The notes under the pieces were generated by a model, which made no database searches, was not told where the DNA came from, and saw nothing but the letters and a program-made list of their open reading frames with translations. A DNA stretch of 64,000 nucleotides from Rhizophlyctis rosea (Eukaryota > Chytridiomycota > Chytridiomycetes > Rhizophlyctidales > Rhizophlyctidaceae), in NCBI GenBank assembly GCA_027596075.1, contig JADGJC010000064.1:1-64000 (forward strand), read 5' to 3'. Positions 5,397 to 35,900 of this stretch are shown here, one piece after another. The position numbers and the translations under genes were made by a program. Numbering within the stretch: position 1 is the first letter of the stretch; every line of letters begins with the position of its first letter.

Positions 5397-8007
5397 TTAT
5401 ATATGTCGTCCAACCGGTCCCCCGTCATCTGAATCATTCCCTTCCCGTTCCCCATCATCATCTCCCATCTGCTCGCCCTCATCGCCAGCCAGCTCCTCAG
5501 GTCGAAATAGACCCAATCGCGCGATGGTATCTCTTAGCGTGGCCATCCATTGCGGGTTAGGGTTATCCTCCGTAGCAGGCGGAAACAGGCCAGGAAGAGC
5601 CGCTTGTGCTGCATTTATGGTTGCAGCAATATGATCTTCCTGCGCGTTCTGGTTTTGCTCCATCTGTGCCGCCTCCTGCTCCACCTGGCGATCAGCGGGC
5701 GGAGGTGCTACACCCGCACCCCCTCCTGGCGCTCCCGCACCAGCAGCTCCTCCCGCGTTCATCCAGGGAAGTAAGCTCCGCAGAAACGACGCCATGAAGC
5801 CCATGTCTTGAAATGGATTGGCCGATCTAGCTAGCGACCATTGGTACTCATCGTATATGGTTGCAGGGGCGTTTTCAGGGGGTATGGGATCGTGCATTTG
5901 GATTCCTTGCGAAAGGATGTCAGGCGGGAGGTTGGCGCTTATTGAAGGGAAGTCTGCAAGCGCAGTCAGTCATGACAGCAAGAGACCAGAGTATCGCTGC
6001 TTGCAATCACACCTGAAATAAAAATGTGCCGTGAAACGTTCCTAGGGATATGACCAGAATACTTCGTCTTTCGTACTTCTCGGCCGGCTGCGATTTCAGC
6101 ATCTGCCTTCTTCAGCCTCTCGGCAACGAACCGAACATTTTCCCGCAGCCAAGCTAGGACCTGCTCGATCCGTCAGCACGAATGGGAGCTGCACGAATGG
6201 GCTATTATTGCTTGCCTCTGGCACCTTCCACAACTCGTGATTCCGCTCGACAAACAAGTCGACGAGTAATTTCAAGGACTGTTCAGAATCCGTGCTGCAG
6301 AAAACAGTGAGTCAATGACAAGTTGAGGTCCGTGCAAACCATGAAGACCTCACACACCTGCCCGCTGTGAAAAAGCTATTACCGGAAACCGCTGAATCCG
6401 TCGTGGAACACTTCTCGTACAAACCGGGAATAGCAGACGGGAAATACGCGATCGCGGTTTGCAACATCCGAGAGCTTTCCGAGTGATCCTTTTGGTCCGC
6501 GATCTCTATCTCCCATTCGGCAAACGCAACAGAATAAGCCATATTGGGCAAGAGCTTAAAACCCTTCTGACTAGCCCATTCAGTATTCAATTGCCTGAGC
6601 CAGCGAAACTCCTTAGCCCGCAATGCGTAGTAGTCGATACTTAGAAGGGATCCTAAGGGATCGGTGTCCGGGTCAAGGCTAGGGTCAAAACTGTCAGCTT
6701 TAAAGCCTTGAAATCATGATTCAACACCAACCCAACCTGAGTAACAGCTTGGCATACTCAAAAGCCGTTCTCCAACAACCACGCCTCGTCAGATACCCCA
6801 CATGTCGAAACAAAGCTAAGTGCATTGCTCGATTTTCGAAAATCTCATACGACAGCCTGCATTTGCCCGTCGCGACATTGAAAATCGAATGGAAACCCCT
6901 TTCTAAGGCGAGCAAAGCTCTTTCTGAACCAGTTTTAGAGATTGCGAGCGGACCTGAATAGGCGAACTGGGACTAAATACCTATCAGCTCAGCGGCCATT
7001 GCAACATCCCCGCTATGCTTGCAAACTTCGCTTAATTGCAATAATGTGTCGATGTGGTAAGGGTACCTGAGAGAATTGTGCAGTACGATTAGCTGATGCA
7101 CAATACGCATCGACACTTGCTACTCACATATGGAGAAGGTTGGTCAAAGTTGAGGGATCATGTGTGGATATACAATCTAAAAATCTGTATTGAATCTCCT
7201 GGTATGACTTCGAATGAACGTATGCGAAATATGACAGTCCTATACAGTTTGATTCAGAGGTTCGTATCATCATGAGTACTCTATTTGTGGAGTAGACGTC
7301 CACTAACCATCTTTGGACTCAACAAGCTCCATCGAGAGTCCCAAACGCTCCATCCGAGGCCATTGTGCTCGAGGAGCAGCAAGTAGGTGTTTCTTCGGCG
7401 TGCGAACGTAATTCTTTTTCCGAATCTCTTCGTTGACCACTCGAGACCCAAACATGCGTTTCATTTCCGCATCCGCATCCATCATCCGACTATCCACACC
7501 CAACAACGTTTTGACTTCGTCCGCCCCCGCCCGCTTTGCTGGTGTGCTGTCGGTGCTCGTCTCTCCGAACTTCTCGTTAAGTTCCCGCAGTGTTCGGTCA
7601 AATTCATCTTCATCCTCCTCTTGAGCAGCCTCAACAGCAGGCGCTTTCCCCTTTGACTGATTCTTCTTCTTCTTCTTCTTTTCGGATTTCGAGGTTGTGG
7701 GAGAAGTGGGCTGTTCGATTACCGGTGCGGGAGGAGTATCGCTCTCGTCCTCTTGCTCATCCACGGGTTCCTCTTCTTCTCCTGCGTTGAGCTAGGGTGA
7801 CTTGGTCAATATGACAATATGTGAGAAGGAGAACGTCGTATGGCTTGTTACCAGGTCGAACAGGTTTTGTTCACGTGCACTGGCAGTGGCAACCTCGTCC
7901 TCTTCGTTTGATGCAATGGAGCCAGTGTCGCTTTCCTCGTCTGAAGGTGGTGCTACTGGCAGAGCGTTTTTCTGGTTGAGTAGCTTGCGGTATGCGCGGG
8001 AACTCAT
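5397..8007 (-). CDS. RQC1: TCF25/RQC1-like ribosome quality-control factor
   Basis: A multi-exon gene whose pieces align in order with TCF25/NULP1, called Rqc1 in yeast, a component of the complex that ubiquitinates stalled nascent chains on 60S ribosomes. Exon 1 (8007-7852) starts MSSRAYRKLLNQ. Exon 2 holds an acidic stretch, a poly-Lys block and the motif MKRMFGSRVV...WPRMERLGLSMELVESKDG. Further exons give HIDTLLQLSEVCKHSGDVAMAAELIG, the GCWRTAFEYAKLLL block and the FKLLPNMAYSVAF block. The last exon has FMASFLRSLLPWMNAG, a GAP-rich linker and an acidic tail. Exons 1 and 2 and the YFAYVHSKSYQ exon join in phase; some middle splice sites were not resolved base by base. It shares its upstream interval with the Fanzor copy. 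Confidence 0.87.
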
Positions 8008-8173
8008 ATTTTAATCCTGTCAACTTCCTTGAAGTGTTTGCCAGTGCGGTGTAATGATGGGTGGTAAAAATAGGTGCATGGTCGGGGGAATGAGGTCTGG
8101 GAATGAGGTGAAGTTCCCCAGTCCTGTGGCTTTGTGAAGGGAGTCACATGACACGATTTCAGGGTCCTTGCTG

Positions 8174-8230
8174 CTATTCGCTTTCCTGCCTGTACGATGG
8201 CTACCAGGTGAGGAAAGAAATGGCGAATAG
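8174..8230. repeat. Imperfect inverted repeat upstream of the Fanzor copy
   Basis: CTATTCGC-TTTCC (8174-8186) is mirrored by GGAAA-(six-base bulge)-GCGAATAG (8212-8230), forming a 13-bp interrupted stem. It lies between the TCF25 start and the first Fanzor-frame ATG. It may belong to the left end of the Fanzor element or to the shared promoter; neither is proven. Confidence 0.6.
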
Positions 8231-8282
8231 ATAACCGGCGTCAAGGGAAGGAACCAGAGTCAAACCAGCCCAAGTTGGACCC

Positions 8283-9894
8283 ATGACTGGTCAAAAATCC
8301 CCAACATCGTCATCCTCCGGGGCAGCCCCCGCACCTCCCACATCAGACTAACAGTCTCCTTTGGATAACGACTCTCCCTTGCGCGACCATCAACCTTACT
8401 GGAACGACAAAGTTGCCAAGCTCAGCAAGGTTTTCATCCCGCCTTCCGCACCTCGCGACCACCCCATTCCTCCTCAACCCCAAAGCAACAAGAAGAAGAC
8501 GACTCCGAAGCCAACTCCGGGCGAGAACAATGACGGGGCGAAATCCAACAAATCCAAACGGGACCGGAAAAAAGAACGGAGGGACAATCCCCGCCCACAA
8601 CGCCCGGAACCACCGTCCTTCGGCAACTCAACGTCACCACCAAAATGGGGTTCAACGTGGTTTTCCGTAGAATTTCACAATGCCGGTCGGGGTCCACGAG
8701 TCCGAGCAGCTGCAGCAGTTTGAGCAACGGTATGTAACCCTGACCTCTGTGTTCACCCCGAATACCGAGTCCTCAGTTCACAATCCCAAATTTCTCACAC
8801 ATATGTACATTTAGGTGGTTGTTCCGGGATGATCCTATGAAGGCTGACTCTGACGATCTCCGTGATGATCCAACGGACGCTGACTCTGACGATCTTGGAA
8901 TGCAGCATTTTTTGGAAAGGTATGTTGAGTACATCATTCACGCACTTGCACTTTGTATGGAATCAACGGCTCATTCCTAGGTATCTCGGCCCCACCGAAT
9001 TGACTGCCCCTGACACTCCATATATTGATGAGTACGACTCCGACTTTTCCGATGACTCCAACCACAGCCAACCGCGCAAGAAGGATAACCTCGATGGGCC
9101 CAAACCAATATCGCCTACCCGGACATCCCGAAAAGCGCCGCAACAACCACAAGTGGCCAAATCTCGAAGGAACATTCCACTACACCTGCACACTCACCTA
9201 CAACCGTGTCCTGCATACTCGGGATTGGAGCTGGGTTCACATGAGACCCATCGGCGAAAACCAAGCCGAGTACCCATTGGTCGTCTCGCTAGATCCTGGC
9301 GTCCGCAAGTTCCTTGCCTTCTACTCTCCCACCCACGGCACCGGATTCATCGGCTCTCCTGACATGTCCCGCATCGTTCGCCTTTGCCTCCATCTCGACA
9401 GCTTGATATCAGCCGCAACACAATCCAACCATAACCGTCGCCGTGCCCTACGGCGAGCTCAACATCGTATCCGGCGACGCATCATGAATCTCATCACCTA
9501 AGTCCACAAGAAAACTGCCAATTGCCTTGTCAACACGTTCAACATCATCATCATCCCGCATTTCAGCTCTATCGACATGTCTGCCCGCCCCAACCGCAAC
9601 ATCAATGCCAAAACAGTCCGCAAGATGCTTAATTGGGGCCACGCCAAGTTTCGACAACGTCTTCTCGATCTTGCTGAAGAAAAGGACAAAGAGGTCATCG
9701 TGCTTCCCTCCGAAGCTTATACCAGCAAGACCTGTCCTCGTTGCGGTACGATCAAGCACCATCTAGGCGGTAATGAACTATATAGGTGTTCGAGGGCTGG
9801 ATGTGGGTATCAAGCGGACAGGGATGTAGTCGGTGCGGTTGGCATGTTCTACCGTGCCTACGGGATGGGGGAGCTAGTTGTGGAGGGTTTTTAG
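8283..9894 (+). pseudogene. Fanzor: eukaryotic TnpB-like RNA-guided nuclease, interrupted copy
   Basis: The C-terminal half is a TnpB/Fanzor RuvC nuclease. RuvC-I is VVSLDPGVRKFLAFYSPT (Asp codon 9292). A helical NLIT-stop-VHKKTANCLV segment follows, then a strand ending IIIIPHF, then IVLPSEAYTSKTCPRCG (Glu codon 9712), a CPRC...CSRAGC zinc finger, and the RuvC-III DRDVVGA (9817-9834). Just upstream is a LEGTFHYTCTLTYNRVL wedge-like region. The N-terminal part has a Lys-rich, NLS-like stretch (about 8490-8580) and acidic repeats (DADSDDL). Two GT-AG introns are clear (8730-8814, 8920-8980). The reading frame is broken by in-frame TAA codons at 8349 and 9499 and by frame changes near 8640-8680 and 9060-9160. 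Without those it would be a Fanzor-type protein of ordinary length. Codon use follows its neighbours, so it is not a recent bacterial import. Confidence 0.85.
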
Positions 9895-10000
9895 AAAATT
9901 TTCATTGCATATCTAGTCATGTGTTTGTTGGTAACCCCTCCTAGTACTAGCAGCATCCATGATTAGATAGCGCCTTCGGGCTTTGTTTGACAGGCCACCA
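9895..10000 (+). ncRNA. Candidate guide-RNA scaffold (fRNA) / right end of the Fanzor element
   Basis: Immediately 3' of the nuclease stop, ATCTAGTCATG (9911-9921) pairs with CATGATTAGAT (9958-9968) with one G-U pair. Inside that stem TGTTG can pair with CAGCA, enclosing a CTAGTACTAG palindrome. Right after it comes a GCC-TTCG-GGC tetraloop hairpin (about 9972-9981). In characterised Fanzors the guide RNA overlaps the 3' end or 3' UTR of the nuclease gene, so the position is right. The RNA itself, its ends and any guide segment are inferred. Confidence 0.4.
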
Positions 10001-10118
10001 AGTGTGCGCTCATGTAGATGTGTAATCTATCCGAATGTAGTTGAAAGTAGTTAGAATCGCCGCAGACAAGACCCCAGATTCTGCAAGCATTTGTGGCAAT
10101 AATGTATGGTACTTCTAC

Positions 10119-11322
10119 TTAATTACATAGTAACTTTTCCATAGCCCAATAGTCCTCGATCATTTCCTTGTAAATCTGGTGCGCAGTGTCAGGTTGGTTG
10201 ATAACCCGTTCGCCTCGCCACGGTTTGCCATCTGGTCCCAATCGGTGAGTTTGAACCACATCAACCTCTGAAGTGCAATGTACCCACATCCACCCTGCGG
10301 TGCTTCCGTCCAGTGAGCATATGCCACATTCTTTGCCCAATCATCCACCGTCCACAACGGATGAACAGGTGCCTTCTCCTCCGGTGTGCGCTTGAAATCC
10401 ACATTGAGAGCTACAAGCCCACCCGGCAACATGGCAACATAGTGTCCCAACGCAATATTGGACATATCCATGTCACCCATTGAGCGGTTCTCCGCCTCCG
10501 CCTGCTGCCAAACATCGAATTGCATCTTGTATAGCGTCTCCGATGGTTCGACGATGTACAAGATGGATGTGAAATAGTCGTTGGTGGGCCACCAGTAAGC
10601 GCGGCAGGCGTAGAACGGGTAAGGGGGGTAATCAAAGAGACTGTCAAGAGATTGGCGAACCACACTGGAGATGGGTATGTTACATGGAGAAGGTGCGGAA
10701 TACATCAGTCAGTGAGGTAAGATGAAAGAACCAGTTCCCCGAGCAGTATGAAAGTCCAATGCTCCTCTTGGTTAGGCAGCACTCACAAGAGGCACAACAA
10801 CACATACCCGTCAGCATCCAACACGACAATGCGATCAAACTCTATCAAATTGAAGACCTGCAATCTTGTAAAGCAGTCTCGATAATAAGACATGACCAAA
10901 TCACTGCTCATCGCGTTCACGGGCAAGAGTTGCATGCCGATGCCCTCCATCTTCCTACGTGATTCCAAACTAACATCCGGGGTGACAAGAGCCACAATCT
11001 CAATATCCTCCCGTTTCCCCGCCCGCACGATGGAGTTTGCCATTAGGATGGACGTACACACATACTCCTCGTTGGTGACATATGTAACATATGCCAGGCG
11101 TCTGGTATCTGTGGTATGGGCCGATGAAGTTACCCCGATAGCATGCGAGATGGACGACGAGGAGAATCCTCCCGATTGGAATGCTAAGTATAAAGAACCG
11201 AGAATGACAATGGCTGTCAAAGATATCAGTCCAAACCGTACGAAAAGCCTTGAACGGCTGCTGGACGAGACGCTAACTGCCCCCCACATCCGTTCCAACG
11301 GTCCAGTATATATGGAGACCAT
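10119..11322 (-). CDS. GT8 (glycogenin-like) glycosyltransferase, type II membrane protein
   Basis: Exon 1 (11322-10808) encodes a short cytosolic N-terminus, one membrane anchor (LFVRFGLISLTAIVILGSLYLAF, about residues 27-49) and the start of a GT-A fold: RRLAYVTYVTNEEYVCTSILMANSI. Then comes FDRIVVLDADG, whose D-x-D binds the metal and nucleotide sugar. Exon 2 (from 10664) joins in phase to give DADG-VVRQSLDSLFDYP, followed by the acceptor-side region (YWWPTNDYFTSILYIVEPS). The architecture suggests a Golgi enzyme; donor and acceptor sugars are unknown. The last part switches frame: the expected GPDGKPWRGE motif and tail (to 10119) are in a different frame from the ALQRLMWF segment, so there is either an unresolved intron near 10210-10300 or a frameshift. 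Confidence 0.75.
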
Positions 11323-12027
11323 GATTGAAAGTAATAGTGTTACACTTGTGCATATGGTGTCTCCCAGCTACACAAAGAGCATGTGCATCTGAGGTTCTTG
11401 GCTGTGACCATAATCTGACATTCACCCAACTTAGCCATCGGCCGTGGGTGTCGATCATAGGATTTGCATAGGATTTGGTAAAAATAACGCCGATCTTGTG
11501 CATTGGCTGGCGGGCCCAGTCCAGGACCTCGGACTTGTTGTGGCTTTGCCAGGTTCCTCATCACTTCAAAAATCAGATTTGTCGGCCATCTGTTGCGGAA
11601 GGCGGTACTTCAGTGCCTAGGTGCACCTATCCATCCAGAACCTTCGCTTCAGCCAGCGCCATTCAACATCGCAATCTCTTACGCTATAAGTCTACAACCT
11701 TTTTTCGGGAGAAGAGATACTGATTTGGACTTGATGTGCACTGTGCTTTTTGCGCGGGGTATAACGGTATCATCCATACATTGATTCGGCACAAAGCACG
11801 CTGGAACCCGATGCATCGCCACTCTTCGCGAATCAGGTCACAAATTGCGGACCCTAGGATCAAGAGTGAAAAGGTGCGGAGCATTCGCACATTGTCCATC
11901 GCGCTTACTCGACACGCAACTCGAGTCCCACCCTTATCAGCCGGCCTGTGACGCGCGCCCCCAAACTCCTCCTTGACGCGCTGAAGTGGGAGTGACATGT
12001 CAATACCACTGTCTTATGGTCCAGCAC
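11323..12027. other. Intergenic, nothing recognised (0.7 kb)
   Basis: The interval lies upstream of the GT8 gene and downstream of GCN5. Open frames here are short, overlap on both strands and show no family motifs. Confidence 0.5.
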
Positions 12028-32949: not shown

Positions 32950-35900
32950 TTAGAACGCCGCCCTGTTCCTCAAATCCTCCAACTTCTTCGAAACCTCCGC
33001 AACAGTCTTATCCAAATCCTCCGCAACAGCCCTCTTCTTCTCAGGCGGAAGCAAATTAAACTGCTCACACAAATCCCCATCAATCGTCGCCCGCACCGGG
33101 ATGTAATAACTACGGTACGAAAGATGGTCCCGTCCACACAATGGAGGCAGTTCATTCCGGAGGTGCATCTCCAGCGTCTGCATGAAGTCAACGTCGTCTT
33201 TGGATACGAATGGAATCAAGGCGCCGATGGAGCCTAGGAAGGTGGTGTAGATGATGATGTCGCGTCCGCCGGGTGTCAAGCTGGCTTTGTTGACGGATGT
33301 TACGGTCGCGCCGGCGTGGAATTCCGCGACGTGTTGCAGCTGGTTTACGAAGACAAATGATGATAAGGTACGCCGAACGGAAGAAAGCTAACGTCAAAAG
33401 CACCTTACCTTGTGCGGCGCACCCTGCAAATATCCACGTTCATACACCAGCTTGTTCCCCGTCGGATCATCCTCAACCTCCTCACTCGTCTCTTGTGGCA
33501 ACCGATCCACAAACAGATTTCCAAACTTGTCCCCACCAACAACAGTGTCATAATCCACCATCGTGGATGCAGTGATCCATCTTGGTGTTGTGTCATCCGC
33601 AAAGATCACGATCCTGTTGTCGAAGTGTCGGTACGCGCAGTAATGGACGGATTCTTGAACGTCGCCGACGACGATGCGGTTGCCTTGGGTGTGGATGCTG
33701 ACGATGACGTTTGGGAATTGCTAAGGGATAACAAGCATTGGGCATCAAGTTTTCCGTTTGTTCAGACGTCGACAGAAACAATCCAACAAATTTTCCGTTT
33801 GTTCAGACGTCGACAGAAACAATCCAACAAACCTTGTTTTCGCACTTCCTAAGCAATTTCCTCTTTCCAAGTTCGTATATCCGCAGAGCATTTCCCATCC
33901 CCACCAACAATCTCCCCTGGAACGGACACATTGCGTACGGAATAGCATCCACGTCGGTCTGCAGACGTCCAGTTTAGTATTGTATCCCACTTTGTCACCA
34001 AACAATTGAAGCACCAACCTGATGGACAAGCTCCAAAGCACTTCCGTCTTCAACAAATCGGTACACGTGCAACCGTCCCGTGGTGAAACTTTTCGGTGAC
34101 AAAGACACATCGACTGCTGTTCCTACCACTAGGAAAGACTCGCCGTTCTGATTGTTGAAGACACATGTTGTAACACTGCAAGATATATACAAAATCAATC
34201 AGATAGGTCCAGCGCGTAGGGCAAATAAATTCGAAATATACCTGAACGCCGCCTCATTCCTGTCCAAATCCAAAACACTCAAAGCCTCCCCATCCTTACT
34301 GATCAATCTAATACACGATCCCCATTGCCCAGGATCCGCTTTCGGTAGTCCAAACTGGTCCACTGGTAGTTCTTGCGAGGAGGGTTCTTCACCTTCCACT
34401 TCCATAGCGTCATCTTGGTTTTGGGCAAGCAGCTGCTGCCGTGCACCAGGGCTGTACGTCCCGTGTTCCGATTCAATGACGACGATGGTTTTGGTGTGAG
34501 GGTGCACCGTGAAGCGACGCGGAGTGTATGTGGACGGCACAATGGTTTGGTGGAAGACGTTGCCGAGCTTTTCGACCGTGATGATTCTGCAAAGAGAAAA
34601 AGGATCAGAGATACCAATTGCGGAAAGTTCCACTTTCCATCTCACCGAAGTGTGTTGCCAGCAATAGCAACAATCCCCTCTGGACACTGCTCGGAAGTAA
34701 AACTCGATCCATATTCCAGCATCTCATACGACAACGGAATCAACTTGTTCCGACTTTGAAACGTGAATGACAACCATGGGCGACTGGAAAGAGCAAGGAC
34801 TGCCGAGCTGCCTTGGATGGTAACCAAATGCAGCTTGACTGGACGTGCGCCCAGGAAGCGCACTCGAGTATCGCTCATGGTACCCGTGACGGAGTCAAGA
34901 GAGCTTCGGAAAAGCAGACCATTTTGACACCCGATGTTCACATACAAATTTCCAACCGTGGTTCCTGTATCCATCATTTCGACTACAGCCAAGGACTCGA
35001 TGGGTGCATTCACGCTCTGAAGATTTTGATCAGAAAAAAGCACTTGCAGAAACGGTGTCATGTTCGACATACCTGCAGTCCCAAATTGTCCCAGCAATTG
35101 TTCACATCCAGAGACAAAATCCTCACTGCATTGATACCTTCCGTTGGGTCCGTGTATCCGACAGCCTAGCACGGCGAATGATGAATACCAATGCAGTGAC
35201 GAGAACCACCGCCAATGACTTACTAAGAATTTAGTCTGTTGACGACGATCAGGAACAGGTCCCAATGCCAACGCTGTCACTAATGCTTCCATAGGCTTTC
35301 GCGTTTGGTATTCATCCAAATGCCCGCTTGCATCCAACTTGAAGTACACAAGCTCGCCTCCAGACAGCGCAATGACGACCTAAGAGAAGAACATTGAAAA
35401 ACGGAGTTCCAAGTGACATTAGCTTGATATTGTTACACACCTGACGTTGATTGCACGCTGCTCGGATGATAGCTTTATTGCCCGGAGTCTTCCATTCGCT
35501 GACACGCCTGTCCGATCTGATGTGCCGAATGCCGCGTGGGTAGATCTAAAAGGACAGATGAGCATCTTATCCGCATGTACCAGCTGCATATGCAAATACA
35601 TACTTGAACAAGAGCGTCATCACCGAGTTGAGCTACCATCAACGTTGGCGTGCTGTTCAGGAAACCTGTGTCTGTCACCTCCTCCACCGTTTCGCCAATC
35701 GAGAGAACCAGCGTAGCGTCAACGAAGGAAACGATGATGTATGCATCGTACTCATCTTGTATACCTCGAGTTAGCTTGATCTCCTTCATGTGATTTAACC
35801 GGAAAAAAACATACCACTGGCGCTTGACTTCACAGTCCACACTGCATTTGGATTCCCAGGCAATTCACTGACGGCCATTTCGGATACTTCCAAACCGTGT

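Follow-up and report, generated by a model that had tools for sequence, protein, structure and literature searches.

The window analysed here is a 64,000-nucleotide stretch of DNA from the chytrid Rhizophlyctis rosea, and at positions 9256-9861 of its forward strand it carries a TnpB/Fanzor RuvC-zinc finger unit (the window copy). On one side of this unit lies a TCF25 gene (6312-8010, minus strand), divergent from it, and on the other a GT8-like gene (10160-11367, minus strand), convergent with it. This placement had been proposed in an earlier note made from the sequence alone, and it holds: PF04910 matches the TCF25 gene on 6315-6713 (E 3.5e-26), and PF01501 matches the GT8-like gene on 10783-11367 (E 0.0034, below the curated cut-off). 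The extents given for both genes are those suggested by open frames; the pieces at 7306-7791 and 7795-8010 of the former and at 10160-10708 of the latter matched no Pfam family. Rfam returned 0 matches over the whole window, and a near-perfect 41-nt tandem repeat (2.1 copies, 97% matches) was seen at 33746-33831.

When all six frames of 6500-11500 were searched with a RuvC profile built from seven IMG/VR relatives, the unit scored 217.6 bits (domain E 4e-68), and no second region of that span came near this score. The unit falls into two parts, both on the plus strand. The first (9256-9498, frame 1, recognized by profile and alignment) contains RuvC-I, with its DPG motif at 9292-9300, and the helices that follow; searched alone, this piece matched a single antibody (E 0.2) among PDB sequences and, in Pfam, just OrfB_IS605, below cut-off (E 0.032). 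The second (9502-9891) is recognized by PF07282 (E 4.7e-15, above the Pfam cut-off), by the NCBIfam model NF040570, guided_TnpB (E 3.1e-15, under its curated cut-off), and by the solved structure 9b0l. It contains RuvC-II, whose relocated Glu (9712-9714, within SEAYTSKTC) precedes the zinc finger by six residues; the C4 zinc finger (TNB) itself, with Cys codons at 9733, 9742, 9787 and 9802 and the spacing CX2C...CX4C; and RuvC-III, DRDVVGA, with its Asp at 9823-9825. The unit ends at a TAG (9892-9894). In a motif alignment that holds 15 of the 23 rows chosen for it, the DPG, the Glu column and the RD pair are invariant across all 15 rows. According to a passage of PMC10711439, DPG together with the relocated Glu constitutes the Fanzor fingerprint; the window copy carries both, as well as the zinc finger and the DRD.

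The four motifs that the earlier note had placed at the C-terminal end were thus all located, and its attribution to the TnpB family and the Fanzor lineage is borne out by the profile score, the Pfam match and the fingerprint. The note had also named two findings that would count against this attribution, namely, best matches to a non-TnpB RuvC family and the lack of the upstream half in every sibling copy. Identity as a TnpB/Fanzor stands because the best matches are to TnpB/Fanzor proteins and because the HTH/REC half is present in one sibling from the same genome, C21 (PF12323, E 5.1e-5). The description of the motifs as one C-terminal unit needs amendment: all of them are present, but they do not lie in one open frame, since an in-frame TAA at 9499-9501 (plus strand) divides the unit between RuvC-I and the next helix. 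This stop falls on a conserved column that is gap-free in the alignments and therefore does not look like an intron, although it may be a sequencing error. The final 390 bases, with RuvC-II, RuvC-III and the zinc finger, form an open frame.

The upstream region and the frame change

Directly before RuvC-I is a stretch (9100-9258, plus strand) that is shared with the same-genome locus C225 (40% identity over 53 amino acids; E 2.6e-9 against a small, purpose-built set), and that we call WED-II-like from its place in the alignment. Farther upstream, the Lys-rich N terminus described in the earlier note corresponds to a Lys/Pro-rich open frame at 8352-8723. This frame encloses a weak, putatively remnant N-terminal motif (QPYWNDKVAKLSK...) at 8391-8429 (plus strand, position mod 3 = 0), which is the best six-frame match in the whole window to an N-terminal motif profile (E 0.005-0.006) made from 22 distinct nonwindow rows, taken from 29 loci with both anchors among 132 examined. 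The profile of a second motif, SWFS, had no match near the window copy among the best seven matches listed, and for the reading at 8352-8720 nothing else in the genome reached E <= 1 (5 candidates scored). An HTH/REC segment was not detected upstream of RuvC-I in six frames of 6500-11500. With a second profile (65 distinct rows from 80 usable of 132 loci, none of them from this genome), the scores, which are uncontrolled by shuffling, were 59.7 bits for C21, 15.4 for C270, 2.7 for C225 and -4.8 for the window copy. All that is visible of the HTH/REC/WED half is therefore the WED-II-like stretch and the weak N-terminal motif; the missing HTH/REC may reflect a lineage that diverged past recognition rather than a loss.

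The two spliceable introns that had been reported are also there. From an ATG at 8680, with A at -3, a putative exon 1 (8680-8729) is followed by a putative intron of 85 nt (8730-8814), a putative acidic exon 2 (8815-8919) with a 36-nt in-frame tandem duplication at 8823-8894, a second putative intron of 61 nt (8920-8980) and a putative acidic exon 3 (8981-9072, frame 0), all on the plus strand. Both introns read GTATGT...TAG, and splicing yields a 113-codon reading that runs up to 9165. It was equalled by 1 of 300 dinucleotide shuffles and by 3 of 206 other tiles of the window. A weak codon model, which gave the correct frame top rank in 126 of 252 test pieces, picks the splice-predicted frame in all three putative exons; an earlier model had been based on two open frames. 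The acidic exons had no relative in the genome beyond the window itself (3 candidates scored).

As read from the sequence, the spliced upstream reading is in frame 0 and the RuvC unit in frame 1, so that exon 3 requires a shift. Because the resemblance to C225 starts near 9068-9100, we place the frame change at about 9070-9100. A third intron linking the two frames was considered; only weak, nonconsensus acceptors fit by eye (unscored), and a frame change is therefore more likely. With this change and the TAA, the window copy has no uninterrupted frame. The 367-aa relative L020, for its part, matches it over residues 167-362 alone, with one stop.

Related loci in the genome

The genome searched comprises 44.1 Mb in 634 contigs; families of radial-spoke proteins and of fungal chitin synthases were both found in it, in keeping with a flagellate fungus. 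PF07282 occurs at 8 places. A near-full-length IMG/VR Fanzor2 query of 367 aa found four loci at E <= 0.01, each of them interrupted: the window copy (one TAA), C270 (one TGA), C225 (two TAGs) and C21 (two pieces in different frames). C21 and C270 have a recombinase gene upstream (Pfam Resolvase), and that of C21 passes the NCBIfam cut-off for IS607 transposases; the first HTH/REC and TnpA profiles included rows from these two loci, so that their matches there hold by construction. At C21 (105690-107405), the IS607 transposase gene, a 264-aa open frame, is followed directly by a Fanzor2 in which the HTH/REC half is retained but the frame changes. C270 (7012-8724) consists of a piece of an IS607-like recombinase gene and an interrupted Fanzor2, and it is the recombinase-bearing copy nearest the window copy in the tree, with weak support. 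Two further, more diverged PF07282 loci, C1 and C438, score 65.0 and 23.3 bits with the RuvC profile; an HTH/REC trace is seen in C1 (11.9 bits) and a short recombinase-like one in C438 (22.2 bits). Frame changes were seen in both (C1:444611-444931 and C438:5954-6103).

An IS607 TnpA serine recombinase adjoins C21 and C270. Next to the window copy, six frames of 6500-11500 gave no TnpA signal, and we rejected the idea of a TnpA remnant there. Nor did the search for intact siblings with shared flanks, which the earlier note had suggested, bear fruit: at the DNA level, no further copy of the window region or of the C21 element was found in the genome (by a search that skips very common words), and the three other Fanzor2 loci are each interrupted. 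A recent multicopy family with shared flanks was rejected accordingly, with these two regions tested. An inverted repeat at 9795-9809/10281-10295 was considered as a pair of element ends and set aside as chance, because one arm overlaps codons of the zinc finger and the second falls within the GT8-like gene.

In a tree of 60 rows (5 from this genome, 25 of 80 bacterial loci and 30 of 57 IMG/VR loci, among which some contigs recur), the window copy groups with C225 (99/89), and C270 joins the pair weakly (90/57); the tree left out Fanzor1, C438 (too short), and C391 and C224 (no profile match), and its bootstrap is unsettled. Identity to the window copy is 48% for the closest copy in the same genome, 44% for the nearest IMG/VR locus and 40 to 42% for the nearest bacterial loci. 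Between the window copy and C225, the three codon positions differ at 0.41, 0.30 and 0.65, with third positions near saturation. Third positions differ most, which suggests that much of the divergence accrued under protein constraint. The earlier reading of the copy as old is upheld. Of the columns conserved in the family, the window copy keeps 45 of 56, C225 36 of 49, C270 43 of 54, C21 34 of 45 and C1 22 of 36. Retention is 51 to 54 of 55 to 56 in six outside copies, but these six helped to choose the columns, which favors them; the seventh, L155, did not, and it keeps 44 of 56, so that column retention neither shows nor excludes decay.

A broken copy and the alternatives

We consider it very probable that the window copy is the decayed remains of an old IS607-type Fanzor2 gene, now dead. 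Three features carry the argument that it is dead: the stop, the frame change and the missing N-terminal half. At the locus, a full RuvC/zinc-finger fingerprint and an in-frame stop were observed, no HTH/REC half was recognizable and TnpA was absent, and the reading also draws on the relatives in the same genome, two of which have an IS607-type recombinase gene. Given that the REC half is undetectable and the copy interrupted, we classify it according to its ancestry, as a Fanzor2 relic rather than a working guided nuclease. Most likely, it makes no guided nuclease today.

The ancestor would have been an IS607-like element that was mobile and that encoded a TnpB/Fanzor; guided by RNA from the element's own end, this enzyme would have cut DNA beside a transposon-adjacent motif. 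RNA-guided cutting is thought to help IS607-like elements persist. In such an ancestor, REC and WED would have recognized the target-adjacent motif and held the guide-target duplex, and RuvC would have done the cutting, these being the roles described for Fanzor1 structures in passages of PMC10432273 and PMC11423790. For much of its divergence the copy would have been under protein-level constraint; its N-terminal half would then have been lost, or have diverged beyond recognition, and the copy would have been broken.

Some features speak against a relic. With its two spliceable introns, its well-placed start codon and a codon bias that agrees with the frames, the upstream part resembles a gene rather than junk, and RuvC-II, RuvC-III and the zinc finger are still open. 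One might therefore propose an exapted chimera, in which a short, intron-bearing, acidic N terminus is joined to a Fanzor2 RuvC/TNB lobe in a nonguided host gene and the stop is recent or an error. That the two-intron reading beats chance, that the weak codon model tracks the spliced frames, that the RuvC lobe keeps most of its conserved columns and that the upstream part has no second copy in the genome, at the DNA or protein level, are all compatible with such a gene. However, the spliced frame meets the RuvC frame only via a further shift or a weak intron, the TAA lies in frame, and the genome search found no relative of the N terminus; we regard the proposal as improbable. We find it distinctly improbable that a host took over the Fanzor2 RuvC/zinc-finger lobe with the acidic, intron-bearing N terminus replacing the REC half, without RNA guidance, in a gene that is failing or mis-sequenced at one codon. 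Among the literature matches listed, no paper title concerned Fanzor domestication.

It is quite unlikely, in our estimation, that the locus encodes a working Fanzor2 with a diverged N terminus at 8352-9100 and a stop that is either a sequencing error or read through. Such a gene could account for the N-terminal motif at 8391-8429, as well as for its distance to the DPG, which is about 251 codons without the putative introns (about 299 with them) and so lies within the 222 to 257 codons of L018, L019, L020, L022 and L024. Yet HTH/REC, a segment that relatives keep, gives no signal, there are frame changes and the TAA, and the query that found the window copy showed its three sibling loci to be interrupted as well.

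Affiliation and comparison with known systems

On its sequence and its modeled fold, the window copy is a Fanzor2 of the IS607 type, not a Fanzor1 like SpuFz1 of Spizellomyces, the affiliation that the earlier note had implied. Its top solved relative by sequence is the mimivirus TnpB-like L79/Fanzor2 (9b0l; E 9.5e-11 in a PDB sequence search), which also came first (E 5.9e-45) when PDB sequences were searched with a profile of eleven rows, two of them pieces of the window copy and nine from elsewhere. The read-through 9091-9891 was also modeled with AlphaFold2 (mean pLDDT 71.7, with residues 1-57 and 167-170 below 50), and the model again retrieved 9b0l first in a fold search (E 5.5e-11), with SpuFz1 first seen at rank 17. 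SpuFz1 was absent from both PDB sequence result lists (36 and 27 sequences); with C391 and C89 as queries, by contrast, it was the first match. We therefore dropped a Fanzor1 identity, and we think it very unlikely that the copy is a Spizellomyces-type Fanzor1 which a eukaryotic DNA transposon has captured. The two do belong to the same broad family, the host looks like a flagellate fungus, and SpuFz1 does appear among the fold matches; against this weigh its absence by sequence and its low rank by fold, the IS607-type copies that are the closest kin (in a tree without Fanzor1 rows) and the fact that a close relative of SpuFz1 sits elsewhere, at C89. There (C89:78700-79128; L175:1408-2718, minus strand), a 436-aa open frame matches SpuFz1 at E 5e-144. 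C391 matches it at E 1.1e-5, and two Fanzor1-type pieces, C391:8157-8792 and C385:18594-18818, are 91% identical over 75 residues. From these sequences, the Fanzor1 family of C391 and C385 appears to have been active more recently than the Fanzor2s. A Fanzor1 query found no relative among the viral contigs ("viral" being the IMG/VR collection's own label for its contigs).

Prokaryotic contamination, or a misassembled bacterial IS607 element, is hardly conceivable, for although the nearest bacterial relatives are hardly less similar than the nearest IMG/VR locus, the copy lies on a 166-kb contig with eukaryote-type genes on either side and spliceable introns close by, and its closest relative is another copy in the same genome.

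If it is a relic, the window copy adds a fossil to the record of bacterial IS607 TnpB nucleases spreading into fungi. Among the fungi tabulated in earlier work are two, Spizellomyces and Allomyces, that we take to be zoosporic. Fanzor1 alone is entered for them in the table (PMC3627910). Fz2 is broadly present in fungi according to a passage of PMC10432273, so that a Fanzor2 in a fungus is not new and the window copy alone is unsurprising. What the genome offers is a combination: both Fanzor lineages in one flagellate fungus, four mutually distant, interrupted Fanzor2 copies, recombinase genes that still adjoin two of the Fanzor2 loci, and a separate close relative of SpuFz1. It is a useful setting in which to ask whether Fanzor2s enter fungi repeatedly and then die out.

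A passage of PMC10711439 derives Fanzor2 from IS607 TnpBs, mostly cyanobacterial. A scan of bacterial genomes with four IMG/VR copies found 255 relatives; 80 were kept, and 54 of these 80 are labeled cyanobacterial. These pro-Fanzor-like IS607 TnpBs (Cyanobacteria and others, e.g., Moorena L037) have the same DPG and relocated-Glu fingerprint as the window copy, the nearest being 40 to 42% identical to it across the RuvC lobe; the aligned ones are bacterial and open across that lobe, whereas the window copy would be a fungal relic. The IMG/VR loci are Fanzor2-like as well (L018, 47% identity over 119 query residues; nearest in the tree, 44% over 205 columns), and an upstream recombinase frame was found in two of the seven viewed (L019 and L020), unlike the window copy, which lacks a TnpA signal. 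In L018, L020-L022, L037, L041 and others, the nuclease frame extends without a stop well upstream of the nuclease, through a PYW...LWLP stretch that, by eye, overlies the recombinase gene's end in a different frame; this stretch is possibly an overprinted N terminus. L024 seems to have the motif without an overlapping recombinase gene end.

Of the solved structures, SpuFz1 of Spizellomyces punctatus (8gkh) shares with the window copy the TnpB superfamily and a fungal host, but it belongs to the Fanzor1 subgroup, and neither of two PDB searches by sequence matched it to the window copy. The Fanzor2/L79 of Acanthamoeba polyphaga mimivirus (9b0l) shares the RuvC/TNB lobe, the DPG, the zinc finger and the DRD; it was solved at full length in a ternary complex, whereas in the window copy the HTH/REC segment is undetectable and a stop lies inside.
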